Assembly: GCF_900172365.1 (NCBI RefSeq)
Contig: NZ_FWFJ01000004.1
Coordinates: 1-64,000 of the forward strand
Direction: 5' to 3'
Source of the DNA: Roseovarius gaetbuli
GTDB lineage: Bacteria; Pseudomonadota; Alphaproteobacteria; Rhodobacterales; Rhodobacteraceae
DNA length: 64,000 bases
Positions 6,967-26,262 of the stretch are shown here, piece after piece. The notes beneath the pieces are model-generated. The model made no database searches. It was not told where the DNA came from and saw only the letters and a program-made list of their open reading frames with translations. Made by a program: the position numbers and the translations under genes. The number at the start of each line of letters is the position of its first letter. The first letter of the stretch is position 1.

Positions 6967-8132
6967 GCGGTGGCCTCGACCCATTGGGTAAGTGTGCAAT
7001 AGTCGGGTTTGCCTGCCGCCAGCATCGGCAAGGCGGCGACAAAATGCACCCGGCGCGGGGCGCGCAGCGGGCCAAGGGTTTGTCGGCAAAGCACCAGCAG
7101 GTCATGCTCGCTCATCGTGGCATCGGCCCCGGCGACGACCGCGATAAGGCGATGACCGCGCTTTTCATCGGGCAGGGGGAGTACCGCGACACTGCCGGTG
7201 CCAAGGGTTGCGGCCAGAAAACCTTCGATCTCTTCGGGAAAGACATTGATGTCAGAGATTGTCACCATTCGGCTTTTGCGCCCAACGACAAAGAGGTTGC
7301 CCGCCGCATCCAGCCGCCCCAGCTCGCCAATCGAAAGATACACGCCATCCCAGCGGGTATCGGCGCTTTGACCGCCGGCGTAGCCGTCAAAGAGATAGGG
7401 GCTCTTGACCCAGATTTCGCCGATCTGATCGGTTTCATGACCCGCCGCATCGCGGATCGAAATCGAGACACCGGGATAGGCGGCCCCGACCGAACCGAGC
7501 GGCGTGGTGTCGTTTGCCCAGCTGACAAAGCTGGTCTCGGCCGCGCCATAGAAATGGATCAGCCGGGCATTGGGAAAGGTCCTTGCGGCGTCGGTCGCGA
7601 TCCTGTCGCTAAGCTGGCCACCGCCGACCAGAATATGGCGCGTCGATTGAATCGCGGGGGCGTCTTGTGCGCACAGCAGGCCAAGCTGCGTCGGGGTGAT
7701 ATAAAGGACCGTCGCCTGCTCTTGTTCAAGCGCGGCAAGCTGTCGGTCGGGGCGCAGGCCATGCAGGCCAAGAATGCGCGCACCGTGATGGGCGGCCTCT
7801 AACGTGCCATAAAGCGCCAGCGAATGCGCCAGCGTTCCGAACACCGCGGCGCAATCGCGCGATGACAGGCCAAGCACCCGCCCGTTGACCGCGAAACTGT
7901 CTATCCAGGAGGATTGCGTGCGCCGGATAATCTTGGGCTCTCCGCCAGAGCCCGAGGTCGCGCAGTGAAGATAGCGCGCCGGGTCAGACGAGGGGCTGTC
8001 GAGCGGCGCAACGCCCGAGGCGGAAACCGCAATCGAGGCGCGCGCGCGCACCAGTGCGCAGAGGTGCGACATCGCGACGTCCGATCCAAGCACCGTCGCG
8101 GAGTCCCGCCATTCAAAGGAGTTCTGGTTCAA
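6963..8132 (-). CDS. Short acyl-CoA ligase / AMP-forming synthetase (YhfT-like)
   Basis: A 389-residue ANL-superfamily adenylating enzyme, shorter than the usual 500-550 residues because the N-terminal region is reduced. It keeps a P-loop-like TSGSGGEPK, the A5-like FYGAAET, the A8 hinge region with FVVGRKSRMVTISDINVFPEEIE split around the hinge, and the A10 lysine in AAGKPDY. The likely reaction is activation of a carboxylate (fatty acid or dicarboxylate) to its CoA thioester via the acyl-AMP. A TAG at 8136-8138 just upstream leaves TTG 8132 as the only nearby start, with GGGG about 9 nt ahead. It overlaps the thiolase by 4 bp. Confidence 0.8.
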   Translation of the reverse strand: MNQNSFEWRDSATVLGSDVAMSHLCALVRARASIAVSASGVAPLDSPSSDPARYLHCATSGSGGEPKIIRRTQSSWIDSFAVNGRVLGLSSRDCAAVFGTLAHSLALYGTLEAAHHGARILGLHGLRPDRQLAALEQEQATVLYITPTQLGLLCAQDAPAIQSTRHILVGGGQLSDRIATDAARTFPNARLIHFYGAAETSFVSWANDTTPLGSVGAAYPGVSISIRDAAGHETDQIGEIWVKSPYLFDGYAGGQSADTRWDGVYLSIGELGRLDAAGNLFVVGRKSRMVTISDINVFPEEIEGFLAATLGTGSVAVLPLPDEKRGHRLIAVVAGADATMSEHDLLVLCRQTLGPLRAPRRVHFVAALPMLAAGKPDYCTLTQWVEATA

Positions 8133-8159
8133 ACGCTAAGCCCCGATCTGCGTTCTAGT

Positions 8160-8921
8160 CTAATAATGCGATACATACCCGCCATCAACCGCGAGCACTT
8201 GCCCGGTGACATAGGACGCCGCCGGAGATGCCAGAAACAGCACGGCCGGGTTAGCCCAACGACCAAGCGAGGTGTTTCGCGCCAACATGTCGGCGATCTT
8301 GGGGTCCGCCGCCGCCTGTCGGTTCGGTTCTGTCTTGAAAAAGCCCGGCGCGACGGCATTGACATTAATGCCCTTGGGGCCAAGTTCGGCGGCGAGCGCC
8401 CGAGTCAGACCGATAAGCCCGGATTTGGCCGTTGTATATGCCGCATCGCCGGATTGCGCGATGAGCCCGGCAATCGACGAGATGTTCACAATCCGCCCTT
8501 TAGATTTCTTTGCAGTCATCATTTTGGCGGCATGTTGCGCCAACAAAAATGGCGCCACGAGATCGACATCCAGCAAGCGGCGCAGATCTGCGCCGGTGAA
8601 GTCCTCAAAGGCGCGGCGATCTCTGAGGCCAACATTGTTGACCAGGATATCAAGCCCGCCCCCGGCGTTTTCGATCGTATCGAACGCCTGTGCAACCGCA
8701 TCCTCATCCGCCACATCAAAGACCAGAGCCCGCGCCTCGCCACCGTCGCTGGCAATCTCGTCAACGGCTTTTTGCACAGTCTCGCCCCGGCGCCCATTAA
8801 CCCAGACAATGGCCCCAGCCGCGGCCAGAAGGCGCGCGATTTCAAAGCCCAACCCACTGCTGCTGCCGGTGACCAGGGCCTGCTGGCCGGTGAGGGAAAA
8901 CGGTCCAAAATTCTGCAACAC
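8160..8921 (-). CDS. Short-chain dehydrogenase/reductase
   Basis: A classical SDR of about 253 residues: cofactor motif TGSSSGLG, NNVG, the catalytic Ser in NISSIAG, and YTTAK (Tyr/Lys). The Arg in NGRRGE after the second strand suggests NADP(H). The N-terminal FSLTGQQALVTG resembles gluconate 5-dehydrogenase and 3-oxoacyl reductase relatives. I chose the GTG at 8921, with GGGAG at a normal distance; an upstream extension to 9038 has no domain similarity. It is the first gene of the SDR-ligase-thiolase set, and reducing a 3-keto product of the thiolase is a plausible role. Confidence 0.85.
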   Translation of the reverse strand: MLQNFGPFSLTGQQALVTGSSSGLGFEIARLLAAAGAIVWVNGRRGETVQKAVDEIASDGGEARALVFDVADEDAVAQAFDTIENAGGGLDILVNNVGLRDRRAFEDFTGADLRRLLDVDLVAPFLLAQHAAKMMTAKKSKGRIVNISSIAGLIAQSGDAAYTTAKSGLIGLTRALAAELGPKGINVNAVAPGFFKTEPNRQAAADPKIADMLARNTSLGRWANPAVLFLASPAASYVTGQVLAVDGGYVSHY

Positions 8922-9216
8922 GCATCTCCCGTTGAAACCTTTGCGATGGGGTGCTTTGGTGTGTAACGCGCAGGAGGGGCTAACCATAGCGCTTTGTTTG
9001 CCCGGGTCCGCATGCGAGTATTCTAACGTGCGGGCCAACTAAATGCGCATAAACATAGTTATGTTAACAAAGGTGGCGTGCCCCGAGAAAGTTGATCTTA
9101 CGTAACCAGAGACGTCGGATGCTTGCCGTTGTTAGGTCAAACGCCTTGCATAATCATGTCGATAGCTATCGCGATTTTAAAAACCACCTCAAGCCTTCGC
9201 AAGGCAGGACACCCGA
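8922..9216. other. Intergenic region upstream of the SDR operon
   Basis: No convincing gene. It holds the leader and promoter of the SDR-ligase-thiolase operon and the 3' end of the preceding aminotransferase operon. A small palindrome, AACATA-GT-TATGTT (9052-9065), lies about 130 bp upstream of the SDR start in an AT-rich stretch and could be an operator. It does not match the alphaproteobacterial BioR consensus. Confidence 0.35.
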
Positions 9217-10542
9217 TCAGGCCCGTAGGGCCGTTTCGATGGCACCCGAGAGCTTTTGCACCAACTCGTCGATCTGATCGTCGTTTATGATAAAGGGTGG
9301 CGCGAGAAGAACGTGATCGCCGGTTTTTCCGTCAATCGTGCCGCTCATCGGGTAACAGATCAGGCCGGCCTCGAACGCCGCCGTCTTGATTCGCCCTGCA
9401 ATCTTTCGCGCGGGATCAAACGGCGCTTTGGTGTCGCGATCCGCCACAAGCTCGACCCCCTGAAACAGGCCCCTGCCCCGAATATCGCCGACATTTGGAT
9501 GCTGGCCAAATTCGGCCTCAAGCGCCGCCATCAATTTTGCGCCTTGGGTTTGCACCTGCGGGATCAGGTTACGCCCGATCAAGGCGCTGACCACGGCAAC
9601 ACCTGCGGCGGCGGCGGTGGGGTGGCCAAGATAGGTATGCCCGTGCTGGAAAAACCCGCTGCCGTTTTCGATGGTCTCATAGATTTTCCGGCTACAGAGC
9701 ATCGCACCAATCGGCTGATAGCCCGCGCCTAACCCCTTGGCGATACAAAGGATATCGGGGGTGACGCCGTCTTGCTCACAGGCAAAGAGGCTTCCGGTGC
9801 GGCCCATGCCGCACATCACCTCGTCAAGGATCAAGAGAATCCCGTATTGATCGCAAATCTCGCGGATGCGTTTGAAATAGCCCGGCGCGGCGGTCAAAGC
9901 GCCGACGGTGGCGCCGACAACCGGCTCGGCAGCAAAGGCCATGACGTTTTCCGGCCCGACCCGCAGCAATTCTTCTTCCAGAAGGTTGGCGGCGCGAAGA
10001 CCGTACTCCTCAAGGCTCTCGTCATCGCGCTTGAGACGGTATTCATAGCACGGGTCAATATGGCTCATGTCGATGAGAAGCGGGGCGAACTGCGCGCGGC
10101 GCCATTCATTGCCCCCCGCCGAGAGCGCGCCCATGGTGTTGCCATGATAGCTTTGCTTGCGGGCAATCAGGCGGCCGCGCTTGGGCTCGCCCTTCTCGAC
10201 AAAATACTGGCGCGCCAGCTTAAGCGCAGCTTCCATCGCCTCGGAGCCGCCCGAGACAAGATAGACCCGATCTAGATCGCCCGGCGCATGGGCGATCAGA
10301 AGATCGGCCAGCGTCTCGGCCGGTTCAGAGGTGAAAAACCCGGTATGGGCATAGGCCAGTTTATCTAGCTGGGCCTTGACGGCCTCAATGATCGTCTTGT
10401 CGCCATGGCCAAGACAGGACACCGCCGCCCCGCCCGAGGCGTCAAGATATTGCTTGCCGCTGGTGTCATAGAGATAACACCCCTCACCGCGCGCGGCGAC
10501 CGGGGGCAGTTGCTTGGTATGGCGTGGGAAAATATGTGACAT
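9217..10542 (-). CDS. Class III PLP aminotransferase (omega-amino acid type)
   Basis: A 441-residue fold-type I aminotransferase. Visible hallmarks are GGAAVSCLGHGD, VSGGSEAMEAALKLAR (PLP phosphate), SYHGNT, LILDEVMCGMGRTG (the PLP-ring Asp) and the Schiff-base Lys269 in IAKGLGAGYQP. The family moves amino groups from terminal amines of polyamines, beta-amino acids or taurine to pyruvate or 2-oxoglutarate. It is the last gene of the 12-kb operon from 21125, 9 bp after the C45 gene. Substrate unknown; an amine released by the upstream decarboxylase or amidase is a reasonable guess. Confidence 0.88.
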   Translation of the reverse strand: MSHIFPRHTKQLPPVAARGEGCYLYDTSGKQYLDASGGAAVSCLGHGDKTIIEAVKAQLDKLAYAHTGFFTSEPAETLADLLIAHAPGDLDRVYLVSGGSEAMEAALKLARQYFVEKGEPKRGRLIARKQSYHGNTMGALSAGGNEWRRAQFAPLLIDMSHIDPCYEYRLKRDDESLEEYGLRAANLLEEELLRVGPENVMAFAAEPVVGATVGALTAAPGYFKRIREICDQYGILLILDEVMCGMGRTGSLFACEQDGVTPDILCIAKGLGAGYQPIGAMLCSRKIYETIENGSGFFQHGHTYLGHPTAAAAGVAVVSALIGRNLIPQVQTQGAKLMAALEAEFGQHPNVGDIRGRGLFQGVELVADRDTKAPFDPARKIAGRIKTAAFEAGLICYPMSGTIDGKTGDHVLLAPPFIINDDQIDELVQKLSGAIETALRA

Positions 10543-10551
10543 CAGTCTCTC

Positions 10552-11523
10552 CTATGCGGCGCCCGGTATTTGTACATGGCGCCCGCCCTCTTGAAAATGA
10601 TCCATCGTTTGCGACCAGACGGTGCCCGGCCAACGGACCTCCATCTGTTGCAGGCGTGGGCGATAAACGGCGGTGTAAAGCGTGCCAAACCCGGCGGAAA
10701 ACGCTGTAGAATAGAGCGGCGGGCGCAGGAAGGCGTTGATGAACTTATCCTCTGGATCGCGGTGCAGGGTCAGGCGTTGCAGCAGATACCGCTCGCGCTC
10801 GACCGTGGCGGTAAAGCGCGCATGGCTGACCCATTCGACGTTTTCCTGATGGTTGGTGGCCACGGCGGCATGGGTGATCACCGCCGGGCGATCCGGCGCC
10901 ATCATCGCGGTCAGGTACTTGCGCTTGGCATCAAGCACGGTGACGTTATAGCTCATATGCGTCGGCAGGCGGGCCAGGGCCGCGCCGGCCTCTTTCGCCG
11001 TTTCGCAGGTTTGCAGCACATAGCGCAGGATCAGCGGCACGCCGAACCCCTCGCCGACCACCCGCCGCCCGCCAAAGGTAAGCGAGATCGCCAAACCTGC
11101 ATCGTTCATCCCGTCAACAAGCCCCCAGAGCCCGTCAGAGGTGCCGATAACGCGCCGCCCCTGCCAGCCGGTTTTCAGGATCAGACTGTCAAAGGCGTTG
11201 GGGTTATAGTCGTAATTGCGCACAAGAACCGGTTCTTCACCGGTCCAGATCGCCTGGCTACAGCCCGAAAGATAAGGCGGCGGGCAATAAAAGCTAAGAA
11301 AGCGCGCGGCCTGATCGCCCCCGCCGACCAGTTCGCACAGGGTGTCGTAAAGCGGTACGATCTCGGGCATGTGCTGCTCAAGGGCGCGTCGGCTTTCAAG
11401 GTATTTCGGCCGCGCCGCGTCGCCCTCTTTGAGCCACCAGCGTTTGTAGTCGGGCCAATATTCGGCGAAAAGCCCGGCCCATTTCGGGCCGGGCAGGTCT
11501 TCGCTTAATGCGCGCCAGAGCAT
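10552..11523 (-). CDS. C45-type Ntn acyltransferase/hydrolase
   Basis: A 323-residue protein of the linear amide C-N hydrolase group (isopenicillin-N acyltransferase-like, peptidase family C45). The SGCSQAIW motif places a candidate nucleophile Cys at a Gly-Cys autocleavage site about 100 residues in, followed by LVRNYDYNP and later DGMNDAGLAISLTFGG, all typical of this fold. Members self-cleave to expose the Cys and then hydrolyse or transfer acyl groups of amides. The ATG at 11523 has AGGAAG upstream and lies 10 bp after the ATP-grasp gene. With a ligase beside it, it could trim or transfer an acyl group on an amide intermediate; that is inference. Confidence 0.75.
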   Translation of the reverse strand: MLWRALSEDLPGPKWAGLFAEYWPDYKRWWLKEGDAARPKYLESRRALEQHMPEIVPLYDTLCELVGGGDQAARFLSFYCPPPYLSGCSQAIWTGEEPVLVRNYDYNPNAFDSLILKTGWQGRRVIGTSDGLWGLVDGMNDAGLAISLTFGGRRVVGEGFGVPLILRYVLQTCETAKEAGAALARLPTHMSYNVTVLDAKRKYLTAMMAPDRPAVITHAAVATNHQENVEWVSHARFTATVERERYLLQRLTLHRDPEDKFINAFLRPPLYSTAFSAGFGTLYTAVYRPRLQQMEVRWPGTVWSQTMDHFQEGGRHVQIPGAA

Positions 11524-11533
11524 CGCAACTTCC

Positions 11534-12991
11534 TTACATGATCTTGAACGCCGGATCCGCCAGGGCAGGCCCCGCATTGGCAACCGGCAGCGGTTTGCCC
11601 GCGACGGTCTGCTTGATGCCGTGGATCCACTTTTTCGCGCGCTCGTTGAGCTGAAAGCTTTTCGTCATCGAGCGGCCCCGCGTCACGAGAATGCCGATAT
11701 CGGCGCCCTCGTAGCGATAATCGCCCGGCTGAAGGATGCGCAGGAAGAACGCCTCGTTTTCCGATTCAACCGCACGGCGGTGATAATCGAAGCGGTCAAA
11801 GACCACGCGGCCATCCTCGAGCATCTTGTAGATGCCGGTTTCGGGTGCGTCGGTGCAGATATCAACGCTGTCCTCGGTGTGCTTGATCACCATCTGCGAC
11901 CAGCTGTCGATCATGTCGGGGTTGGCCCAACGATTGTTCAGCTCGGTCGTATCAAGGGTGAATTTTTTCTTCGAGAATTCAAGCAAGTGGAACAGGAACA
12001 AGGGCGCATCCGCATGGGCAAAGGCGGCGTGATTGGTCATCGACGACGCCCCGGTGATGCGCGGGTTCAACTCGCCCAGCCAAAGATCGCCGGTCTTCTT
12101 GTCGATCAGGAAATCAAGTTCGAAGTAACCGCGATAGCCCTCTTTGCGCAACTGCTCGCCGAACTTGAAGGTCAGTTCGCGCGCCTGTTGGCGGACTTTG
12201 GGCGGAAAGGCGGTGGACAGGATTTCATTGCCACACCAACCGCCGCGATAGGGCGTGAGATCCTTGAAACCGACAAGCTCGGTCATCAGCGGGCCAACGA
12301 TGGTGCCCTCTTTGGTGGCGCAGGCCTCGATTGCGGAACCCCGGCAATCAATCCGCTTCATGATCTTAATCTCGCCCTCGCCGATGATCTCGTGCTCGTG
12401 ACGGCGGAAATCGGCCTCGGACTTGATAAAGAACGTGGTATGGCCGCTATCGCCAAAGGCCGATTGCAGCACCAGATCATGACCGATCCCGGCCTTTTCA
12501 CAGGTCTTTTGCAGATCCTCGTAGGATTTCACCTCGGCCAGAACATTGGGCACCGAGGGCACGCCGGCCTTGTTGCCGATGCGCACGGTTTCGATCTTGT
12601 TGTCCATCGAAGTGCGCAGCTTGGCCTTGGGGAACCAGACTTCGGCGCCAAGCTCCTTGGACAGACGCTCGGTTTCCTCGTCAAACATCAGGAAGACGAA
12701 TTTCGGCTTGCCGCCCCGGCGCTTGATGAAATCAATCACCTCTTTGTGCTGCAAGAGATAGTTGTTGATATCCTCGATCGACTGAAACTCGGCATGGGGT
12801 TGTTCCGAGGGGCAGAACACGTTCGGATGCTTGCCGCCGTAACAGTCGATATAGCAGATATATTTGAAGTTCTTCACCCACTCATCAAGACCCAGAAGGT
12901 TAAAGTTGGTGGCCGAAATAAAGTAGATCGGGTCTTCGTTGCGGTGAAAGAACCGGCGGATTTCCGAGATATTCTTGAGCACAGTTGCCAT
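11534..12991 (-). CDS. ATP-grasp carboxylate-amine ligase-like protein
   Basis: A 485-residue protein with a central ATP-grasp domain (roughly residues 130-340). The glycine-rich ATP loop is SAFGDSGHTTFFI, the lysine strand is EIKIMKRI, and the metal-binding end is FELDFLIDKKTGDLWLGELN followed after a break by PRITGAS (acidic residues plus Asn). Homologues are often labelled biotin carboxylase, but I see no other acetyl-CoA carboxylase parts, and the neighbours point to peptide- or amide-bond formation. ATP-grasp enzymes join a carboxylate to an amine via an acyl phosphate. It sits 15 bp after the large decarboxylase and 10 bp before the C45 gene. The partner amine and acid are unknown. Confidence 0.75.
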   Translation of the reverse strand: MATVLKNISEIRRFFHRNEDPIYFISATNFNLLGLDEWVKNFKYICYIDCYGGKHPNVFCPSEQPHAEFQSIEDINNYLLQHKEVIDFIKRRGGKPKFVFLMFDEETERLSKELGAEVWFPKAKLRTSMDNKIETVRIGNKAGVPSVPNVLAEVKSYEDLQKTCEKAGIGHDLVLQSAFGDSGHTTFFIKSEADFRRHEHEIIGEGEIKIMKRIDCRGSAIEACATKEGTIVGPLMTELVGFKDLTPYRGGWCGNEILSTAFPPKVRQQARELTFKFGEQLRKEGYRGYFELDFLIDKKTGDLWLGELNPRITGASSMTNHAAFAHADAPLFLFHLLEFSKKKFTLDTTELNNRWANPDMIDSWSQMVIKHTEDSVDICTDAPETGIYKMLEDGRVVFDRFDYHRRAVESENEAFFLRILQPGDYRYEGADIGILVTRGRSMTKSFQLNERAKKWIHGIKQTVAGKPLPVANAGPALADPAFKIM

Positions 12992-13006
12992 TATAGTTTC
13001 CCTTCC

Positions 13007-15748
13007 TTATTCGGCTGCAGTCTTGATGTTCTTGGCCTTGGGCAAGGCGGCCAGGGCCTCTGGTGTGAAGACGCGCAACCCAAGATCCGCGCGGTAGCCG
13101 TGGATTTCATTGACGTCGAGCGCGCGCATGAAGGCAAGGATTTCCTTGCTGATCACCTGCCCCGGCACCAGGATCGGAAAGCCCGGCGGATAGGGGATGA
13201 TAAAGCTGGCGGAAACCACCTCTTTCCCGGCCTCAAGCGCGTCCTTCAGCGATCCATCCAGTTCAAGATAATCGCAGTTGTTGAGGTCATAGCTCAGGTA
13301 ATAGGCGGTCCTGATATCGCCCTCAGGCGTCAGGTTGTCGGGCCGGAACGCATCGTGAAAGCGGCTGAAATCCGGCAGCGGCGGGTAATTCTCGGTCAGG
13401 TTCTTGACCCGGCGATCAAACGACATCCGCTCCATGTTCGAGGCATCGTCAAGCAGATCGTCAAGATCCTTGGCAATTTCGACCAACACTTCGATAAGAT
13501 AGGCGACCGACGACCGGGTGGTGCCGATATTGGTCATGAACAAGACGGTGTTGCGCGAGGTCTTGTTGATCTGAATGCCGTACTTGTCCATCAGGATATC
13601 GGTCTTGAAGGTATCGCCATCCCAACCGGTGCCGCCAACGGCAAGGGTCACGCGGGTGGCATCAAGCACGAAATCATCCTGCTCCCAGCAATCCCACATA
13701 TCGGTCCAGCCCTGATCGTTGTCAAAATAGCTGGTGACGCCGCTTTGGCGGTGATGTTCGGGAATCATGTCGCCGGCGGTCAGAACCTTGAAGTACTTTT
13801 GCAACAAGGGATGGGTGCTGATGGCCTTGCGCATCGACATGGCCGCTTCGATCTGGCGTTGAACGAATTCAAACCCTTCCAGCTCGACCTGACGGCGGCC
13901 GACATCAAGCGAGGCGATGATCTGATAGTTGGGCGAGGTAGACGTGTGGGTCATATAGGCTTCGTGGAACGATTGCTCGACCTCGCCTTTGAAATCCTGA
14001 TCGTTGACATGGATCATCGAGCCCTGCCGCAGAGACGTCAGCGTTTTATGCGTCGATTGGGTGGCATAGACCCTTATTCGCGCATCGGGTGGCGCGACAA
14101 GGCGGGTGTCTAGCCATTCTTCATCTGTGGCATCGGCAAGGGCCTCTTGCTGGGCCTCATAGGTGCGGCGATGCGCATCGGTGCGCAGGCGGCGGCGCAG
14201 GTTGTTGGCGGTCCGCATGCCGGTGCGCTGACGATAGGTCGGGCTGAAGCGGGCAAAGGCAAACCAGGCCTCATCCCAGAGGAACACGAGATCACGCTTG
14301 ATCGCCAGACATTCCTCCATCACGCGCTCGACGTTATAGACCAGCCCGTCAAAGGTACAGTTGGTGAGCAAGAGCATGCGCACCCGGTCAAGCTTGCCGG
14401 CGGCCTTCAGGGCCAGAAGCTGATGCTTGATTTCGCGCAGCGGCACCGCGCCATACATCGAGTATTCATTCAGAGGGTAGCTATCGAGATAGACCACCTC
14501 GGCGCCGGCAAGAACCATGCCGTAATGGTGCGATTTATGGCAATCACGGTCGACAAGCACGATGTCACCGGGGCGCACAAGCGCCTGCACCACGATCTTG
14601 TTGCAGGTCGAGGTGCCGTTGGTGGCAAAGAAGGTCTGTTTTGATCCGAACGCCCGGCTGGCAAGTTCCTGCGCCTCTTTGATGGGCCCATGCGGTTCCA
14701 GAAGGCTATCAAGCCCGCCCGATGTGGCAGAGGTCTCGGCCAGAAAGATGTTGGGGCCGTAAAACGCGCCCATATCCTGAATCCAATGGCTGCGGCTGAT
14801 GGATTTGCCGCGGCTGATCGGCATCGCGTGAAACACGCCGGTGGGCTGTTTGGAATAGTTCACAAGCGCGGTAAAGAACGGCGTCTTGTTGCGGGCCTCG
14901 ACCCCGCGCAGGATATTGAGGTGCAGCTCCATAAAGTCTTCTTGGTTGTAGAAAACCCGCCGACAGATACCAAGATCAAGGCCCGCGATATCCTCGACCG
15001 AACGTTCGGTGACAAGATAGGCGTCAAGTTCGGGGCGGACCCGGTCGATCAGGCGGCACAACTCCGGGCCGTAATTCTCGGGCAACAGCGCCTCAAGCTC
15101 ATCGGCGCCGCTGGCATTGCTCAGGTATTTGCTGAGAATTTCATTTTCGTTCTTGGACTTCAGAACAAGACCGGGGCGCACGACAATCGCCTGAATGTTA
15201 TGGTTGAACAGCACCGCGATAAGCGCGTCCTCAAGGCTTGGCACAACAACCGCCTCATAGTGAAACGGATCTTCGGCGCGGCGCATCCGGGTGACGTTGG
15301 ACTTGAGCCAGCGTTCTTGCTGCTCGCTGACATTGTCAACGATCAGAACCTCGAAATAGGGCCGCGCCATGGCGCGCGCCTCGGGCGACAGCATTGCCTC
15401 GTCGTTATGCTCTTCGTCATCCATGCTGTCGCGATCAAGCGGGATCGTGCGGCGCCGATAGGCCCCGGTGGTCAACGCGCGGGTGACCCGGTGCACGCCA
15501 AACGACAGATCGTCGAAATTGCCATGCTCGAACTGGCGGCGCATGTGATCAAAGGCGGCCATGCCGGGAAAGGCCCAATAGGGTTCGATCACGGCGAGGG
15601 CCTCAAAAAGCTCATTGACCCGCAATTTGAGGGTCGCAATCTTTTTGGCGTCCCGCTCGCGGCATATAGAGGTTGTTGCCTCGCGCAACGCGCTCCACCG
15701 GTCAGAGCGGAGCTGCGTTGCGGAATAATAGTCGCTTACAGAATCCAT
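13007..15748 (-). CDS. Very large Orn/Lys/Arg-type PLP decarboxylase
   Basis: A 913-residue fold-type I decarboxylase of the bacterial ornithine/lysine/arginine family, longer than the usual 710-760. The wing domain (about 130-220, FEVLIVDNVSEQQ) comes after an extra N-terminal stretch of about 130 residues. The PLP core shows FFATNGTSTCNKIV, DRDCHKSHHYG, FLWDEAWFAF and the Schiff-base Lys568 in TQSTHKTL; the C-terminal domain has PYPPGFPILVPG. An Arg/Glu-rich insertion of some 35 residues lies between WDEAW and the lysine. The ATG at 15748 has GGAGA 7 nt upstream; the TTG at 15751 is less likely. Whether it uses Lys, Orn, Arg or a derivative cannot be read from sequence. It is central to the eight-gene operon. 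Confidence 0.88.
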   Translation of the reverse strand: MDSVSDYYSATQLRSDRWSALREATTSICRERDAKKIATLKLRVNELFEALAVIEPYWAFPGMAAFDHMRRQFEHGNFDDLSFGVHRVTRALTTGAYRRRTIPLDRDSMDDEEHNDEAMLSPEARAMARPYFEVLIVDNVSEQQERWLKSNVTRMRRAEDPFHYEAVVVPSLEDALIAVLFNHNIQAIVVRPGLVLKSKNENEILSKYLSNASGADELEALLPENYGPELCRLIDRVRPELDAYLVTERSVEDIAGLDLGICRRVFYNQEDFMELHLNILRGVEARNKTPFFTALVNYSKQPTGVFHAMPISRGKSISRSHWIQDMGAFYGPNIFLAETSATSGGLDSLLEPHGPIKEAQELASRAFGSKQTFFATNGTSTCNKIVVQALVRPGDIVLVDRDCHKSHHYGMVLAGAEVVYLDSYPLNEYSMYGAVPLREIKHQLLALKAAGKLDRVRMLLLTNCTFDGLVYNVERVMEECLAIKRDLVFLWDEAWFAFARFSPTYRQRTGMRTANNLRRRLRTDAHRRTYEAQQEALADATDEEWLDTRLVAPPDARIRVYATQSTHKTLTSLRQGSMIHVNDQDFKGEVEQSFHEAYMTHTSTSPNYQIIASLDVGRRQVELEGFEFVQRQIEAAMSMRKAISTHPLLQKYFKVLTAGDMIPEHHRQSGVTSYFDNDQGWTDMWDCWEQDDFVLDATRVTLAVGGTGWDGDTFKTDILMDKYGIQINKTSRNTVLFMTNIGTTRSSVAYLIEVLVEIAKDLDDLLDDASNMERMSFDRRVKNLTENYPPLPDFSRFHDAFRPDNLTPEGDIRTAYYLSYDLNNCDYLELDGSLKDALEAGKEVVSASFIIPYPPGFPILVPGQVISKEILAFMRALDVNEIHGYRADLGLRVFTPEALAALPKAKNIKTAAE

Positions 15749-15822
15749 CAATCATTCTCCCGCTTATTGGGCCGGAACGCGATCAACGGATCAGGGGCAC
15801 AGGGCCCCTGCGGTCCTGCGTT

Positions 15823-16797
15823 CTAGCCGACTGTTGTTCTGCCCTCGAAAGGGGTGGTTCCATACCCAAGAGCGCGCTTGTGATTGCGCTCTTCGGCTTC
15901 GGCATCGGCGGGCACGTCCACATGCAATCCTGCACGTGATCCCTGTTGCGGGATTTCAAGCGGCCCAAGTGTTTTCAGATAGTCGTTGGTTGTGCTGGTG
16001 CGATCGTAAACCGAGAAATCAACCGAGCGGTCACGGAAGCTCTTGAGCACCTGGCCCAAGCCCTTCATTCCGGTTTCGCGTTGACGGCGCACCATCGAAA
16101 GATCGACCTCGATCGGGAACATGTCCTCTTGTCCGGCGGACTGGTGCAACACCAGAGATGTCGGATCGACCACCAGCGATTTGCCGACGCCGCCGGCGCC
16201 AAGGCCGTTCACGTCAAACACATAACACTGAAACTGCGCGGCCGTGGCGCGCGCGATGGCAAGTTCTGCGTCGCGGTCGGTGGTGCCGGTCAGAACCGGG
16301 TGAAGCAGCACTTCAACGCCTTGGCTGGTCAATTCGCGCGTGGTTTCCGGGAACCACATATCGTAACAGATCGACAGGCCAAAGCGGCCCACATCCGGCA
16401 CGTCAAAGACGCAAAACTCGGTGCCCGCCGCGATCCCCGCCTCGTAGGGCAGGAAGGGGAACATCTTGGCATAGCGCCGGATCACCTCGCCATCGGGGTT
16501 GATCACCAGAGCGGTGTTGTAAATCCGCCCATCAATCGGCGAGGTCAGGAACATCGAGCCGGGGATCAGCCAGACCTTATAGCGCCGCGCCGCCTCGCAG
16601 AATTGGTCGATCACGTCGTTTTCATGCGGCAGGGCATATTTGTCGAGCGGGCCAAACGGCGACAGTTCGCTGAACATCACCATCTGCGTCCAGGGAAACC
16701 GCGCCATAAGCACGTCAAGACGATGCAGCATGCCCTCGACATTGGGTTGCAGGGCGTTGACGTACATTTGTACGCCGGCAATTGCGAAAGGGGTCAT
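15823..16797 (-). CDS. Carbon-nitrogen hydrolase (nitrilase superfamily amidase)
   Basis: A 324-residue nitrilase-superfamily enzyme with the full catalytic set: Glu in MFSELSPFG, Lys in RRYAKMFPF and Cys in LSICYDMWFPE. Such enzymes hydrolyse amides or N-carbamoyl compounds (N-carbamoylputrescine, aliphatic amides) or act as amide synthases. The C-terminal 60 residues (from about FSVYDRTS) extend beyond the core. I chose the ATG at 16797, with GGAGAG 8 nt upstream. Sitting between an importer/UspA module and the decarboxylase, it may open an imported amide before decarboxylation. Substrate unknown. Confidence 0.85.
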   Translation of the reverse strand: MTPFAIAGVQMYVNALQPNVEGMLHRLDVLMARFPWTQMVMFSELSPFGPLDKYALPHENDVIDQFCEAARRYKVWLIPGSMFLTSPIDGRIYNTALVINPDGEVIRRYAKMFPFLPYEAGIAAGTEFCVFDVPDVGRFGLSICYDMWFPETTRELTSQGVEVLLHPVLTGTTDRDAELAIARATAAQFQCYVFDVNGLGAGGVGKSLVVDPTSLVLHQSAGQEDMFPIEVDLSMVRRQRETGMKGLGQVLKSFRDRSVDFSVYDRTSTTNDYLKTLGPLEIPQQGSRAGLHVDVPADAEAEERNHKRALGYGTTPFEGRTTVG

Positions 16798-16865
16798 AAT
16801 GTCAGCTCTCCGTGCTGGCAGAGCGGCCCGGATCGGGCACAAGGATTCTCTGCTTTGACCACCTA

Positions 16866-17297
16866 TTACGCCCTTACCACCAGAACGGAAACAGGTGATC
16901 TGCGCACGATTCTATCAGCATTGGAGCCGACAAGAAACTCCCTTACCCGGTCGGGTTTGGGCGAGGCCATGATCACGAGATCACAGTTGATTTCATCAAT
17001 GACCTTGAGAACTTTCTTGTGAATCTTACCAAAAGCCAAGTGTTGCTTTACGTCCACATCATCGGGAACTTCGGCGGAAACCAGCGTATTCAGGGCCTCG
17101 CTTGCGGCGGCGACGGCCCTCACCTCGAAATCCTCGGGGAAGAACCCTTCGACAAGCGGCGTGCCCATATCGGGGACCACCGACATGATATGCAACTTGC
17201 CCTTTGAGGCACGCACAAGCTCTATCGCCTGGGGCAGGGCCAATTTCCACGAGGCCGGCGCGTTAAGATCAATCGTGAGCAGGACTGTTTTGAACAT
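16866..17297 (-). CDS. UspA-family protein, TRAP-associated
   Basis: A 143-residue single-domain universal stress protein. It begins FKTVLLTIDLN, with the acidic residue of the nucleotide site, and ends VGSNADRIVRRSPVSVLVV, a Usp ATP-binding loop in which the first glycines of GxxGxG are not conserved. It follows the TRAP permease by 11 bp. A comparable arrangement is TeaD with the ectoine TRAP transporter TeaABC, where the Usp binds ATP and tunes transport; a regulatory role on this importer is therefore likely, though inferred. Confidence 0.85.
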   Translation of the reverse strand: MFKTVLLTIDLNAPASWKLALPQAIELVRASKGKLHIMSVVPDMGTPLVEGFFPEDFEVRAVAAASEALNTLVSAEVPDDVDVKQHLAFGKIHKKVLKVIDEINCDLVIMASPKPDRVREFLVGSNADRIVRRSPVSVLVVRA

Positions 17298-17308
17298 TCT
17301 CTATCTCC

Positions 17309-20059
17309 TCAGGCGGCGGCGGATTTGCGCGGCGCGCGCGCGTTGCGGCCCCGCTGAAGGAACACGACCAAGCCCAAGAGCAAGAGCGCGGGAATGAACA
17401 TCAGGTATTTGCTTGGCTGACCCACCGGGCGCAGCACGCGCAACACTTCCTGATCCCAGTCAAGGCCTGCCGTTGCCCCGGCGCTTCCAAAGGCGACGTC
17501 GTCAATCAACAGGGTCTCGCCTTCGTTGCGGAACGCCAGACCGGCGTTTTGCAGCCGCTCTTCGCCGGTCGCCCCCTCCTTGATCGGCAGGACGGCGACA
17601 AACTCGATCGGATCGCCAAGATCATTCACCCCTGCCACCCGAAGCCGCAGGTCTTCGCCCACCGGTGTCGCCATGGCCGCGGCGGCAATCTCGGTCGGGT
17701 TTTCCTCGCTATAGGGCGGCGCGACCATATCCATCCAGAAGCCCGGACGGAACAGCGTGAAAGCAATCAGCAAGAGCGCCAGGGTTTCGTAGATACGGTT
17801 TCTGGCAATGAACCAGCCTTGGGTTGCCGCCGCAAACAAAAGCATGGCAACCGTCGCGACAATAAAGACAAAGACCCCCTGCACCCAGGTCACATCAATC
17901 AACAACAATTCGGTGTTGAAGATGAACAGGAACGGCAGGGCGGCGGTGCGCAGCGAATAAAAGAACGCCACGACCCCGGTCTTGATCGGATCACCGCCCG
18001 AGACGGCGGCGGCGGCAAAGCTTGCAAGGCCGACGGGCGGCGTCACATCGGCCATGATGCCAAAGTAGAACACGAAAAGATGCACGGCGATCAGCGGCAC
18101 TATAAGGCCGTTCTGCTGACCAAGGGTGACGATGACGGGGGCCAAAAGCGCCGACACAACGATATAGTTCGCCGTGGTCGGCAGGCCCATGCCAAGGATC
18201 AGCGACAGGATCGCGGTCAGGAACAGAATGGCAAGGATATTGCCGCCCGAGAGAACCTCGACCACATCGGCAAGCGCCGAGCCGACGCCAGTCTGGCTTA
18301 CGGCGCCGACGATGATACCGGCGGTCGCGGTGGCGATGCCGATGCCGATCATGTTGCGCGCACCGGTTTCAAGGCCGTCGATCAGATCGGTCAGACCTTC
18401 TTTAAGAGCGCTACCAAGCTTGCCCTCGCCGCGCATGATCGCGGTCAGCGGGCGTTGGGTCAGCAGGATGAACACCATATAGGCCGTCGCCCAGAAGGCC
18501 GAGAGACCCGGCGACAGGCGATCCACCATCAGCGCCCAGACCAGAACCACAACCGGCAGGATGAAATGAAGCCCCGAACGAACCGTCGGCCCCGGCAGCG
18601 GAAGCGCGGTCACCGGCACATTGGGATCATCAAGCTCAAGTGGCTCTTCTTTGGAGGCGACATAAAGCAGGGCGATATAGACCAGCGAGATGAAGGCAAA
18701 GATGATGTAACCCGCCGCATTCGGAAACGCCGGGCGAATCCAGCCCATGCCATAATAAACCGCAAAGGAAATTGCGCAGATCGCGGCGATGGTAAAGGCG
18801 ATGCCGATCAGGCGCTGCACGATGGGTTTGGGCGTATAGGCGCGCGGAAGACCTTCCATGCCGGCCTTGAGCGCCTCAAGATGCACGATATAGACCAGAG
18901 CGATATAGCTGATCACGGCGGGCAAAAAGGCGTGTTTGACCACGTCGAAATAGGGAATGCCGACATATTCCACCATAAGGAACGCCGCGGCGCCCATCAC
19001 CGGCGGCATGATCTGGCCGTTGACCGAACTGGCCACCTCGACCGCGCCGGCCTTTTCAGAGCTGAAGCCGACCTTTTTCATCAGCGGGATGGTAAAGGTG
19101 CCGGTGGTCACCACGTTGGCAATCGACGAGCCCGAGATAAGCCCGGTCATCGCCGAAGACACCACCGCCGCCTTGGCGGGGCCGCCCTTCATGTGACCCA
19201 TCAGGCTAAAGGCGACCTGAATGAAATAGTTGCCCGCCCCTGCCCGGTCGAGCAGCGAGCCGAACAGCACGAACAGAAAGACAAAGGATGTCGAGACACC
19301 CAAGGCGATGCCGAACACGCCCTCGGTGGTGATCCACTGGTGGTTCACGATTTCCGACAGGCTGTTGCCCTTGTGGGCGATGATGCCGGGCATATAGGGG
19401 CCAAGCACGGTATAGACGAGAAAGACCGAAGCGACGATCATCAAGGCCGGCCCAAGCGCGCGGCGCGTGGCCTCTAGCAAGAGCATGAGGCCGATCACGG
19501 CAACGACGAAGTCCTGAAGGATCGGCGCGCCGACGCGACCGGAAATATCACGGTAATAGACGTAGAGATAAAGCGCGGCCATGGCGCCAAAAACCGCCAT
19601 TGCCCATTCCCAGACCGGCACCTTGTCCTTTGGCGAGCCAAGCAGGATCGCCGCGACAAGAGCTATCGCGATCAGCGGAATCCACCATGTCGAGGTGCCG
19701 TCCTTGGCACCGACCATGAACAGAAACGCCAGAACCACCGGTACAACAACGCCAAGCCCAAGCTGAAACTTGGTGCGCGCCGCCGGAAAGGCCGCGAAGG
19801 CAAGGAAGATGGCAAAGGCCAGATGAATCGACCGGCTCTCGGTGTCGTTGAACACGCCCCAGCCGACGATAAACGGGATCGGCGAGGCAATCCAAAGCTG
19901 AAACAGCGACCATGCAAGCGCAACGCAGGTCAGGAAAATGCCGACTGTACCCGTCGTGCCGCGCCCGCCTGTATCAGAGGAGGCAACCAGCGCGTCGAGT
20001 TCTTCCTGCGATAGCCCGCCACGATCTTTGGTTTGCTGTTGGTTTGGATTGTCCGACAT
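17309..20059 (-). CDS. TRAP transporter fused permease, TAXI type (DctQ-DctM fusion)
   Basis: A 916-residue membrane protein that fuses the small DctQ-like part (N-terminal helices after a hydrophilic lead of about 35 residues) to the large DctM-like part with around 18-20 predicted helices. Typical stretches are GSLLDRAGAGNYFIQ, SGSSIANVVTTGTFTIPLMK, GQIMPPVMGAAAF and GLPTTANYIVVS. The last 150 residues hold a soluble region before a final helix, like the DUF3394 end of these permeases. With the TAXI binding protein upstream it forms a sodium-driven importer, probably for an organic acid or amino-acid-like solute. It starts 109 bp after the binding-protein gene, across a strong hairpin. Confidence 0.92.
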   Translation of the reverse strand: MSDNPNQQQTKDRGGLSQEELDALVASSDTGGRGTTGTVGIFLTCVALAWSLFQLWIASPIPFIVGWGVFNDTESRSIHLAFAIFLAFAAFPAARTKFQLGLGVVVPVVLAFLFMVGAKDGTSTWWIPLIAIALVAAILLGSPKDKVPVWEWAMAVFGAMAALYLYVYYRDISGRVGAPILQDFVVAVIGLMLLLEATRRALGPALMIVASVFLVYTVLGPYMPGIIAHKGNSLSEIVNHQWITTEGVFGIALGVSTSFVFLFVLFGSLLDRAGAGNYFIQVAFSLMGHMKGGPAKAAVVSSAMTGLISGSSIANVVTTGTFTIPLMKKVGFSSEKAGAVEVASSVNGQIMPPVMGAAAFLMVEYVGIPYFDVVKHAFLPAVISYIALVYIVHLEALKAGMEGLPRAYTPKPIVQRLIGIAFTIAAICAISFAVYYGMGWIRPAFPNAAGYIIFAFISLVYIALLYVASKEEPLELDDPNVPVTALPLPGPTVRSGLHFILPVVVLVWALMVDRLSPGLSAFWATAYMVFILLTQRPLTAIMRGEGKLGSALKEGLTDLIDGLETGARNMIGIGIATATAGIIVGAVSQTGVGSALADVVEVLSGGNILAILFLTAILSLILGMGLPTTANYIVVSALLAPVIVTLGQQNGLIVPLIAVHLFVFYFGIMADVTPPVGLASFAAAAVSGGDPIKTGVVAFFYSLRTAALPFLFIFNTELLLIDVTWVQGVFVFIVATVAMLLFAAATQGWFIARNRIYETLALLLIAFTLFRPGFWMDMVAPPYSEENPTEIAAAAMATPVGEDLRLRVAGVNDLGDPIEFVAVLPIKEGATGEERLQNAGLAFRNEGETLLIDDVAFGSAGATAGLDWDQEVLRVLRPVGQPSKYLMFIPALLLLGLVVFLQRGRNARAPRKSAAA

Positions 20060-20110
20060 GTCAGTCCCCCGCGGCCCGCTTTGCAGGCGCTTGATTGCTG
20101 TGTCTCAAGG

Positions 20111-20140
20111 TCGGTGCGGCAAACCCTCTTGCCGCACCGA
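20111..20140 (-). terminator. Intercistronic hairpin between TAXI binding protein and permease
   Basis: Perfect 12-bp arms (20111-20122 and 20129-20140, core GGTGCGGCAA / TTGCCGCACC) enclose a 6-nt loop, 28 nt after the binding-protein stop and 51 nt before the permease start. There is no following T-run on the transcribed strand, so it is more likely an mRNA-stabilising or attenuating structure than a full terminator. Such hairpins often keep binding-protein mRNA in excess over permease mRNA. Confidence 0.8.
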
Positions 20141-20168
20141 TGTGTCAGGTGTCGAAAGGCGAGGTGCC

Positions 20169-21125
20169 TTACTTCCAGCCACGCTCTTTGTAATAGCGGA
20201 CCGCACCGTCATGCAGAGGCGCCGAGAGACCGGCACTGATCATGTCTTCTTCTTTCAGGTTCTCGAACGCCGGGTGCAGGCGCTTGAAGCGGTCGAAGTT
20301 ATCGAAAACCGCCTTCACAACCTCGTAGACAACATCGTCATCCACCGTGGCCGAGGTCACGAATGTCGCCTTCACACCAAAGGTATGTGTCTCATCGGGC
20401 GAGCCGTCATACATGCCGCCTGGCACCGTGGCCGCCGCATAGAACGGATTGTCCGCGATCAACTTGTCGATCTCGGGGCCGGTCACAGGAACAAGAACCG
20501 CATCGACGGTCGAAACCGCTTCTTGGATCGAGCCATTGGGATGGCCAACCGTATAGATGATCGCATCGACCTTGTTGTCGCCAAGTGCGGCGGCCTGTTC
20601 TGCGGGCTTGAGTTCCGAGGCGAGGGCGAAATCGTCCATTGTCCAGCCAAGCGCGTTCATCACGACCTGCATGGTGGCATACTGACCCGAGCCGGGGTTG
20701 CCGATGTTCACGCGCTTGTCCTTGAGATCGGCAAAGGTTTTGATCCCGGAATCCGCACGCGCAATAACCGTGAAAGGTTCGCCATGCACCGAGAACACCG
20801 CGCGTTCGTCGGTAAAGGCCTTGCCCTCGAATTCGGAGGTGCCGTTATAGGCGTGATACTGCCAGTCGGACTGGGCCACGCCCATGTCCATGTCACCCGC
20901 CTGAATGGCGTTGATATTGGCGATTGAGCCACCGGTCGACGGCGCGGTGCATTTAAGCCCGTGATCCGCCGAACCGCGATTCACCAGACGGCAAATCGAC
21001 TGGCCAACCACAAAGTAAACGCCGGTCTGGCCGCCGGTTCCGATGGTGATGAATTTTTCTTGTGCGAAGCTTGCTGTACCGGCCAACATGGCGCTGGCAA
21101 AGGCAAGAGATTTGAAAATCTTCAT
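20169..21125 (-). CDS. TAXI-family TRAP solute-binding protein
   Basis: A 318-residue periplasmic binding protein. The signal peptide MKIFKSLAFASAMLAG... ends around ASFA-QE. The mature part shows TAXI hallmarks: FITIGTGGQTGVYF near the start, CTAPSTGGSIANINAIQAGDMDMGVAQSDW split over the ligand site, and RVNIGNPGSGQYATM. The ATG at 21125 has GGGAG upstream. It captures the imported substrate for the fused permease. First gene of the eight-gene operon; a palindrome at 21207-21222 lies in its presumed promoter. TAXI ligands include glutamate and other carboxylates; none can be assigned here. Confidence 0.92.
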   Translation of the reverse strand: MKIFKSLAFASAMLAGTASFAQEKFITIGTGGQTGVYFVVGQSICRLVNRGSADHGLKCTAPSTGGSIANINAIQAGDMDMGVAQSDWQYHAYNGTSEFEGKAFTDERAVFSVHGEPFTVIARADSGIKTFADLKDKRVNIGNPGSGQYATMQVVMNALGWTMDDFALASELKPAEQAAALGDNKVDAIIYTVGHPNGSIQEAVSTVDAVLVPVTGPEIDKLIADNPFYAAATVPGGMYDGSPDETHTFGVKATFVTSATVDDDVVYEVVKAVFDNFDRFKRLHPAFENLKEEDMISAGLSAPLHDGAVRYYKERGWK

Positions 21126-26033: not shown

Positions 26034-26080
26034 TTCAATGTTTCCTTGTTCAGACGAACACCGGTCCCATCCTGGGCTGT

Positions 26081-26186
26081 GTTTAAAATTCTCATAATAC
26101 GTTTAATTTACCTGTCAATCCCGTTTCCGCCAAGCCATTATCGCTGAGCGACAGGTACGAGCAATGCGTCGGATTTAATTTTAAAC
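26081..26186. promoter_or_regulatory. Nested dyad-symmetric operator region between gabT and its regulator
   Basis: Two exact inverted repeats share one centre. GTTTAAAATT at 26081-26090 is mirrored at 26177-26186, and TACCTGTC at 26109-26116 is mirrored at 26150-26157. Both axes fall at about 26133, midway between the divergent starts (26033 and 26263). This fits paired operators for the XRE-cupin repressor controlling both genes, possibly by looping. Confidence 0.55.
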
Positions 26187-26262
26187 TGGGTTCCGGTGCG
26201 GGGTTGCGTGTACTACATTGTTCTCGCAAAAGATTATCCCAAAAGCGCAGAAGGAATGAGAC

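Follow-up and report, generated by a model that had tools for sequence, protein, structure and literature searches.

A conserved nitrilase, decarboxylase, ATP-grasp ligase and C45 hydrolase cassette in Roseovarius gaetbuli and its relatives, with a possible role in diamino acid breakdown

The Puu pathway of Escherichia coli leads to 4-aminobutyrate (GABA) by a logic of ligation, oxidation and hydrolysis, after which a GABA transaminase acts; its ligase is of the glutamine-synthetase type and its hydrolase of the class-I amidotransferase type. The gene cassette described here may share that logic and likewise finish with GABA and its transaminase, and it has a PuuR-like regulator nearby, but its ligase is of the ATP-grasp type and its hydrolase of the C45 type, and its core also holds a decarboxylase and a nitrilase. 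Pfam and NCBIfam found no member of the PuuA, PuuB, PuuC or PuuD families among the eight operon genes, the only Puu-related features being GabT- and PuuR-like neighbours. The likeness to gamma-glutamylated putrescine breakdown that a sequence-only reading of this DNA had suggested fits, in that a GABA-transaminase gene (20 of 38 loci) and a PuuR-like regulator (17 of 38) are frequent neighbours of the cassette. A second described system, the arginine transaminase/AruI route of P. aeruginosa and S. meliloti (PMC7268258), likewise leads from arginine or ornithine to GABA, and an AruI-type gene lies beside the ligase and C45 genes in Shinella; as outlined in that source, however, the route has no ligase or C45 step, while the window instead encodes a PLP decarboxylase.

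The window, a 64,000-nucleotide stretch of the Roseovarius gaetbuli contig NZ_FWFJ01000004.1, carries eight minus-strand open reading frames that fill positions 9217–21125. In order of coordinates they encode a class-III aminotransferase (AT2; 9217–10542; PRK07483, 761.9 bits against a cut-off of 485), a C45 Ntn-type amide hydrolase/acyltransferase (10552–11523; C45_proenzyme, 178.9 bits against 85), an ATP-grasp ligase (GR; 11534–12991; PRK06524, 754.7 bits against 684), a fold-type-I PLP decarboxylase with a long N-terminal region (DC; 13007–15751; OKR_DC_1, 261.9 bits), a nitrilase-superfamily amidase (NIT; 15823–16797; CN_hydrolase, 94.5 bits), a universal stress protein (USP; 16866–17297; Usp, 81.9 bits), a fused TRAP permease with DUF3394 (17309–20059; TRAP_fused, 657.5 bits against 320.65) and a TAXI binding protein, probably for L-glutamate (20169–21125; TRAP_TAXI, 343.5 bits against 84.35). 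The Pfam families over the operon are Aminotran_3, AAT, OKR_DC_1, CN_hydrolase, Usp, DctM with DUF3394, and NMT1_3. Gaps between the genes are 9, 10, 15, 71, 68, 11 and 109 bp, in agreement with the eight same-strand genes at spacings of 9–109 bp described earlier, and were computed from likely starts, those of C45 (11523), NIT (16797) and TAXI (21125) being read by eye from the translations.

The wider unit reaches position 26817 and adds a gabT-type gene on the minus strand (24648–26033), whose product scores 546.2 bits against the cut-off of 506.65 for the 4-aminobutyrate transaminase model TIGR00700, and, divergent from it on the plus strand, a PuuR-like (XRE-cupin) regulator gene (26263–26817; PRK09943, 148 bits, under the cut-off of 211). 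The SDR, AMP-ligase and thiolase genes at 5860–9038 were dropped as members of the unit, being near the core in none of 38 loci. A common operator in the PuuR/gabT gap and the region upstream of TAXI was also rejected, as no palindrome is present in both; compared without a shuffled control, the two regions share a few near matches of 11–14 bases, among them one exact 11-mer, inverted.

Conservation was examined in 195 genomes of the order. GR (at least 83% identical to the window) and DC (at least 74%) occur in exactly the same 39 genomes, and in all 38 loci from the 38 genomes other than that of the window NIT, DC, GR and C45 are found together, a grouping that is therefore not due to chance. 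A 39th locus (L067) carries a 46% identical GR paralogue and lacks DC. The core of the operon is thus NIT, DC, GR and C45, and its other genes are optional neighbours: TAXI/TRAP lies near the core in 25 of the 38 loci, USP in 17 and AT2 in 13, beside the GABA-transaminase and PuuR-like genes counted above. These neighbour counts were taken over pieces of 19–20 kb rather than whole genomes, with identity thresholds of 50% for NIT, 60% for DC, 80% for GR, 60% for C45, TAXI/TRAP and AT2, 35% for USP, 45% for GabT and 40% for PuuR. A further set of named loci, the best 80 of 570 confirmed GR relatives, overlaps with the genome set and so stands outside the 38-locus counts. What co-occurrence in relatives revealed was a conserved core, not the lack of conservation that would speak against the sequence-only reading; of the eight-gene set proposed there the four-enzyme core is constant, but the operon's own aminotransferase type is not. 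That bond-making (ATP-grasp) and bond-breaking amide enzymes stand together here in a combination that this analysis matched to no named pathway also held, and the gene set is a conserved one. Among the matches listed in open-licence literature, no title or abstract opening describes this set. The cassette has the look of a genuine, still unassigned pathway.

The catalytic motifs of the core are strongly kept. C45 carries the motif CSQA-W...RNYDY, whose cysteine is invariant in all 32 aligned sequences (31 of 69 eligible loci plus the window, the window protein without its first 7 residues; a companion alignment took 36 of 68 eligible loci besides the window), and together with its C45_proenzyme score this Cys nucleophile motif places it in the hydrolase family, with autoproteolysis predicted. 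NIT is 59% identical to its Shinella homologue. For GR, PRK06524 is the sole NCBIfam model over its cut-off, and a GELNPR motif is invariant in 11 of 11 aligned sequences. Public records label GR relatives 'biotin carboxylase', and GR has weak PDB matches to the biotin-carboxylase fold (best 2.1e-8), but no Pfam family, carboxylase domains included, matched GR at an E-value of 0.001, other NCBIfam carboxylase models score at most 28.7 bits, far under their cut-offs, and the eight operon genes include no carrier or carboxyltransferase. We therefore rejected the annotation as very improbable.

The decarboxylase belongs to the OKR family, with an STHK catalytic-lysine motif in all 26 aligned sequences, which were taken from 149. 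The sequence-only reading had called it a basic-amino-acid-type enzyme, a description that did not survive alignment: at the position of LdcI Glu526, where LdcI and AdiA both have Glu, DC has Asn in 26 of 26 sequences, and 25 of them have an added Arg. Where LdcI and AdiA read Glu-Lys-Thr-Gly, DC reads Asn-Lys-Thr-Ser-Arg-Asn; a regular-expression scan of the 149 sequences, which include redundant loci, found this motif in 140 (139 NKTSRN and one NKTTRN), and the nine others, all in the alignment, have Asn in nine cases and Arg in eight. Since the Glu assigned to substrate binding is absent from all aligned sequences, DC does not appear to be a plain lysine or arginine decarboxylase, with the reservation that the role of Glu526 is itself a proposal resting on docking and earlier literature. 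Asn and the added Arg would be expected if the omega-amine of the substrate were capped by a carboxylate-bearing group, although the pair is not tied to GR, as it is also present in two DC paralogues (L198 and L199) with no GR nearby. The nearest solved relative, Rv2531c (817.8 bits, near full-length homology), shares the Asn but has Ile where DC carries the added Arg; a review describes it, in the portion that bears on this protein, as a probable amino acid decarboxylase of unclarified activity (PMC12910592). S. meliloti SMa0680/0682 was dropped as a characterised DC relative, a judgement made on the literature consulted, which gave no link to GR.

The importer points to glutamate. At 61% identity, the closest solved relative of the TAXI protein is VcGluP, reported as a glutamate-specific TAXI-TRAP importer in the part of that work relevant here (PMC11574862), and of the VcGluP ligand residues Y45, S75, Q93, G156, D157, Y200 and M201 five of seven are the same in the window, with Gln in place of D157 and Thr in place of M201; Thr at the latter place is also found in the Thermus glutamate protein (PMC11574862). 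From this identity and the kept ligand residues, glutamate is the likely cargo, and the earlier suggestion that the operon may take up a Lys, Orn or Arg amide or peptide is not supported. Likeness to the C. sphaeroides rsp_1412/1413 system (PMC12632250) is one of TAXI subfamily as described there, not of compared sequences. In Cupriavidus, glutamate/aspartate-type transporter genes follow C45, with matches under curated cut-offs.

Such importers raise the question whether DC acts on glutamate itself, turning it into GABA that GR and C45 would then conjugate and release. Conjugation and release of this kind are carried out for beta-alanine by the insect proteins Ebony and Tan, and Tan is a C45-type enzyme. 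The GabT-type gene and the non-basic DC site with its Arg would suit such a route, but we know of no OKR-family glutamate decarboxylase, and the ectoine operon, ureohydrolases and urea transporters described below would be left unaccounted for; we regard it as quite unlikely.

Neighbourhoods in other genomes, with their racemase-like, D-amino-acid dehydrogenase, keto-acid decarboxylase, ureohydrolase, ectoine-degradation and urea-transporter genes, point to arginine or diamino acid breakdown. A 25-kb Shinella piece holds GR, C45 and NIT together and contains no DC match; their neighbours are an ornithine-racemase-like protein (393.3 bits, under the cut-off of 480), a D-amino acid dehydrogenase, an aldehyde dehydrogenase, an agmatinase-family ureohydrolase and a 5-guanidino-2-oxopentanoate decarboxylase of the AruI type (737 bits against 500). 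We propose this set as an alternative path by which a diamino acid could become an amino-aldehyde. A relative of the Shinella keto-acid decarboxylase from S. meliloti has, according to the part of the report that deals with it, a sevenfold preference for 5-amino-2-oxopentanoate (PMC7268258). Pieces of the set recur beside full cassettes: in Marivivens (L046) a ureohydrolase 75% identical to that of Shinella immediately follows C45, and in Marivita (L164) a D-amino acid dehydrogenase-like match (41%) comes after C45. Ureohydrolase genes lie near the core in five of seven loci of family f180 and within the examined piece in only one of the 38 order loci; those tested pass the agmatinase cut-off and not that of arginase. 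Urea transporters occur near DC-GR-C45 in L083/L084 and L184, in L079 and L081 the core is embedded in an operon for ectoine degradation, and a GabT-type gene is near the core in the distant genomes L177, L190 (by NCBIfam) and L082 as well.

On the reading that we prefer, though tentatively, the genes would form a catabolic module in which a diamino acid is converted to an omega-amino acid (GABA or beta-alanine) via an amide-capped intermediate. The substrate would most likely be ornithine, perhaps derived from arginine, or 2,4-diaminobutyrate in ectoine degraders. GR with ATP would cap the omega-amine, probably with glutamate, blocking ring closure of the later amino-aldehyde; DC would decarboxylate the capped amino acid; a class-III aminotransferase and an aldehyde dehydrogenase encoded outside the operon would convert the free amine to the acid; C45 would split off the cap by hydrolysis, so that GABA is released and the capping group recovered; and the GabT-type transaminase would pass succinate semialdehyde to the TCA cycle. 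The TAXI-TRAP importer would bring in glutamate. We infer all five steps from linkage, conservation, protein families, catalytic motifs, the similarity to VcGluP and the lost DC Glu. The capping pathway is favoured by the constant core, the identical distribution of GR and DC and the GabT-type genes in the order and beyond, by the Shinella set, its recurring pieces and the S. meliloti decarboxylase preference, and by the f180 ureohydrolases, urea transporters, ectoine operons, glutamate-type transporters and the Asn/Arg pair of DC. It is weakened by NIT, which is conserved like the rest and fits no step, by the rarity of ureohydrolases in the order loci, by the lack of an aldehyde dehydrogenase in this operon, by the patchy occurrence of AT2 and TAXI, by the sub-cut-off PuuR, racemase and Cupriavidus transporter matches, and by the GR-less paralogues and the docking basis of the Glu526 role. 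A more specific claim, which we consider doubtful, is that the cassette represents an unrecognised diamino acid route in which the ATP-grasp enzyme caps the side-chain amine before decarboxylation, C45 uncaps, DC is a new OKR-family specificity and two chain-shortening modules are interchangeable, proposed to be either PLP decarboxylase and aminotransferase or racemase, D-amino acid dehydrogenase and keto-acid decarboxylase.

Agmatinase rather than arginase matches among the ureohydrolases favour decarboxylation before capping, and the steps could accordingly run in a Puu-like order: DC would produce agmatine or putrescine as the free diamine, which GR would cap as a gamma-glutamyl-amine; AT2 and a dehydrogenase would then oxidise it and C45 would free GABA, making the cassette a Puu analogue with unrelated enzymes. 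The PuuR-like and GabT-type neighbours, the agmatinase-family genes near the core, the urea transporters and the OKR membership of DC all agree with this order, but the Asn and Arg at the DC site speak against it and NIT is again left without explanation, so that we rate it as unlikely.

Were the capping pathway correct, it would assign functions to one ATP-grasp family and one C45 family, add an arginine/ornithine nitrogen route in marine bacteria and give a substrate lead for an uncharacterised decarboxylase subfamily that includes Rv2531c. Public labels for the cassette enzymes are generic or doubtful (biotin carboxylase, C45 family peptidase, ornithine decarboxylase), and besides the sampled genomes of the order rhizobial plasmids also have the cassette, in some cases near nifHDK. 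This last association, the presence in L188 of a siderophore-receptor gene lying upstream of GR-NIT-C45 and the high conservation of GR (83–96% identity to the window across genera) would also suit biosynthesis of a small amide, such as an osmolyte, polyamine conjugate or siderophore precursor, to which we give a low probability, as importers, USP, the GabT-type gene and catabolic neighbours are common and the core holds two hydrolase families.

A NifA/sigma-54 promoter upstream of the rhizobial DC genes was rejected as a general feature, since five of seven have no sigma-54-like site and the background was 196 of 2100 random pieces. In L167 a box and site 80 bp apart lie more than 500 bp upstream of the gene, and in L168 a TGT-N10-ACA box has a sigma-54-like site (10 of 11 positions) 104 bp downstream.

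Eight genes occupy positions 9217-21125, all on the minus strand and separated by short gaps; the eight-gene operon proposed in the sequence-only reading is sound. Profile matches assign them, in transcript direction, to a TAXI binding protein, a fused TRAP permease with DUF3394, a universal stress protein (USP), a nitrilase-superfamily amidase (NIT), a 914-aa PLP decarboxylase (DC), an ATP-grasp protein (GR; 11534-12991, PRK06524), a C45 amide hydrolase (C45) and, last, a class-III aminotransferase (AT2). GR passes the cut-off of PRK06524 and of no other NCBIfam model, and a Pfam search at E 0.001 returned no match to it. The public-record label 'biotin carboxylase' attached to its ATP-grasp family looks doubtful. 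Seen from the operon, a regulator gene and a 4-aminobutyrate transaminase (gabT-type) gene lie past MgtE and a glutamate synthase gene, at 24648-26817.

GR is present at an identity to the window of at least 83% in 39 of the 195 Rhodobacterales genomes sampled. The tally at E 0.001 is 130/195, the matches beyond these 39 having 22-29% identity and lying mostly in pyruvate-carboxylase-sized reading frames, plus one 46% paralogue. DC occurs at an identity of at least 74% in the same 39 genomes; a 40th (G155) has only a relative of 49% identity, and G110 and G140 each carry an additional relative (49-50%). We examined 19-20 kb pieces from the 39 carriers minus the window's own genome, and NIT, DC, GR and C45 were present in all 38, in constant gene order except in L065. 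TAXI and TRAP genes were found near these four in 25/38 loci, a gabT-type gene in 20, USP and a PuuR-like regulator in 17 each, AT2 in 13 and a glutamate synthase gene of the FMN type in 11. None of the 38 pieces contained a gene for MgtE, SDR, AMP-ligase or thiolase. These neighbor counts identify NIT, DC, GR and C45 as the core and the importer, regulator and transaminases as attachments. Several relatives (e.g. L031 and L038) have an uninterrupted run of regulator, gabT, TAXI, TRAP, USP, NIT, DC, GR, C45 and AT2. As a unit, the gene set is real and conserved.

Outside the order, the window GR matched 11/398 genomes of a phylum-wide sample (E 1e-20) and 11/385 of a class-wide sample (E 1e-40), its own genome counted in both. 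Five further orders were also sampled, four with a GR other than the window's as query, and yielded 6/115, 4/17, 3/119, 2/48 and 7/43. Among 27 loci fetched from such matches (L078-L084 and L175-L194), 22 had DC, GR and C45 together, and 16 of these 22 also had NIT, often in a different order; NIT is missing from L083, L084, L183 and L184, and the pieces of L176 and L177 are interrupted by contig ends. GR, C45 and NIT occur without DC in L186 and L188, as in L067 of the first sample, GR with NIT only in L185 and L187, and GR with an aminotransferase in L181. The set in L067 (11166-15631; 44-54% identity) is a second one in a genome that also carries the full cassette, and a glutamine-amidotransferase-like gene lies directly upstream of it. 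Upstream of GR-NIT-C45 in L188 is a TonB-dependent siderophore receptor gene (6994-9156).

DC shares with the Orn/Lys/Arg family its OKR domain, the lysine of STHK and the motif DEAW. The Glu-Lys-Thr-Gly motif of the lysine and arginine decarboxylases LdcI and AdiA reads Asn-Lys-Thr-Ser-Arg-Asn in DC. In LdcI the Glu of this motif is residue 526 and is proposed to bind substrate (PMC5607190). Asn replaces this Glu in 26/26 aligned DC sequences and the Arg is added in 25/26, the exception being L168 with Pro. The nearest solved homologue, Rv2531c, whose activity is described as not clarified in a 2026 review (PMC12910592), keeps the Asn and has Ile in place of the Arg. The Asn/Arg pair also occurs in two DC paralogues (L198 and L199) and is unreadable in a third (L200); these three, from three genomes, have 47-48% identity and no GR or C45 match nearby. 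Because of this motif, the label of basic-amino-acid decarboxylase given earlier is unsafe and is not borne out.

The window TAXI protein is closest among solved structures to VcGluP of Vibrio cholerae (8S4J; code linked to VcGluP in PMC12344293), which according to its authors binds L-glutamate with high affinity (PMC11574862). The two are identical at 180/294 positions, and of seven residues that the VcGluP paper names, five are kept (Y45, S75, Q93, G156 and Y200) and two are changed (D157 to Gln, M201 to Thr). A Thermus glutamate-binding protein likewise has Thr at the position of M201 (PMC11574862). Judging from this resemblance, L-glutamate is the most likely ligand, and import of an amide or peptide of Lys, Orn or Arg, as supposed initially, is not supported. 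Cereibacter sphaeroides belongs to the same order as the window's host. A TAXI-TRAP system of this species is required for sodium-dependent growth on L-glutamate (PMC12632250). Nevertheless, TAXI systems for 2-oxoglutarate/2-hydroxyglutarate or for ortho-phthalate are also known (PMC12344293), which counts against the glutamate assignment. After the core, Cupriavidus oxalaticus has genes for a symporter of the DctA/GltP family and for a GltI-like binding protein (each scoring under its curated cut-off), a second, unrelated tie to dicarboxylic amino acids. Direct conversion of imported glutamate to GABA is another, rather unlikely, possibility.

A Shinella cluster comprises genes for an amino acid permease, USP, an agmatinase-family ureohydrolase, 5-guanidino-2-oxopentanoate decarboxylase and aldehyde dehydrogenase, then GR, C45, D-amino acid dehydrogenase, a racemase, RidA and NIT (59% identical to the window NIT). 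At E 1e-30, the racemase matches a single NCBIfam model, ornithine racemase, with 393.3 bits (under the 480 cut-off). A record labelled Roseateles has a closely similar cluster, and neither 25-kb piece contains a DC match. Members of this set also accompany full cassettes. C45 is followed on the same strand by a ureohydrolase 75% identical to that of Shinella in Marivivens (L046 and L122, both from a single genome). In Marivita (L064 and L164, likewise a single genome), a D-amino acid dehydrogenase-like match (41%) comes after C45. Roseovarius sp. A-2 (L131) has an AruI-like match (46%) close to its cassette, on the opposite strand. In family f180 of the window's class, an agmatinase-family gene is near NIT-DC-GR-C45 in 5/7 loci (L178, L179, L191, L193 and L194; NCBIfam check covering L178 and L179) and was not found near it in L190 and L192. 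NIT-GR-C45-DC in L079 and L081 is flanked by doeA-doeB-Lrp on one side and an aldehyde dehydrogenase-aminotransferase pair on the other; EhuR is also present. A protein combining urea transporter and Peptidase_M23 domains is encoded near DC-GR-C45 in L083/L084 (L083:4483-6654) and L184 (14571-16685). L177, L190 and L082 have gabT-type genes close to the core, L082 together with a succinate-semialdehyde dehydrogenase. Combined, these neighborhoods point to conversion of arginine, ornithine or diaminobutyrate to omega-amino acids; in some lineages urea would be a by-product.

Amide capping brings most of this evidence under one scheme and is our leading, though tentative, hypothesis; the protected intermediate of the sequence-only reading is retained, without its importer substrate and decarboxylase class. 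GR would make an amide, DC and an aminotransferase (in Shinella, racemase, D-amino acid dehydrogenase and keto-acid decarboxylase) would shorten the carbon chain, and C45 would then cleave the amide, glutamate being the natural guess for the cap. Capping of a side-chain amine would prevent ring closure of the amino-keto-acid and amino-aldehyde intermediates. It would also explain why, in DC, the acidic residue that contacts a free amine is gone and an Arg has been added. An order like that of gamma-glutamyl-putrescine breakdown, with decarboxylation first and capping second, suits the agmatinase match of the ureohydrolases at least as well as capping first, though overall we give it somewhat lower odds. 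A biosynthetic role has similarly low odds. No named pathway matching the gene set was found, nor, by title or abstract start among the open-licence full-text matches listed, any description of it.

C45 proteins of this type are not limited to the cassette, since a relative (45% identity) on a Sulfitobacter pontiacus plasmid (L201) stands in a 17-kb piece with no annotated ATP-grasp or decarboxylase gene. Rhizobial plasmids carry DC, GR and C45 with no NIT match (L167, L169, L170, L173, L174 and L202); in L167 GR is followed by only a C45 fragment, and L167, L169 and L174 have annotated DC genes that are truncated or split. On one plasmid, R. leguminosarum OyaliB carries GR at two places. DC-GR-C45 adjoins nifHDK in L174 and L202. 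No sigma-54-like site was found upstream of DC in 5/7 rhizobial loci. In S. meliloti SM11 (L168), DC is preceded by a TGT-N10-ACA box and, 104 bp from it, a sigma-54-like site (10/11), which may form a NifA-type promoter; a comparable pair in L167 is spaced 80 bp apart and sits farther upstream. Radical-SAM RiPP maturation genes are near the cassette in L169, L170 and L173, with Nif11-type precursors beside them in L169 and L173.
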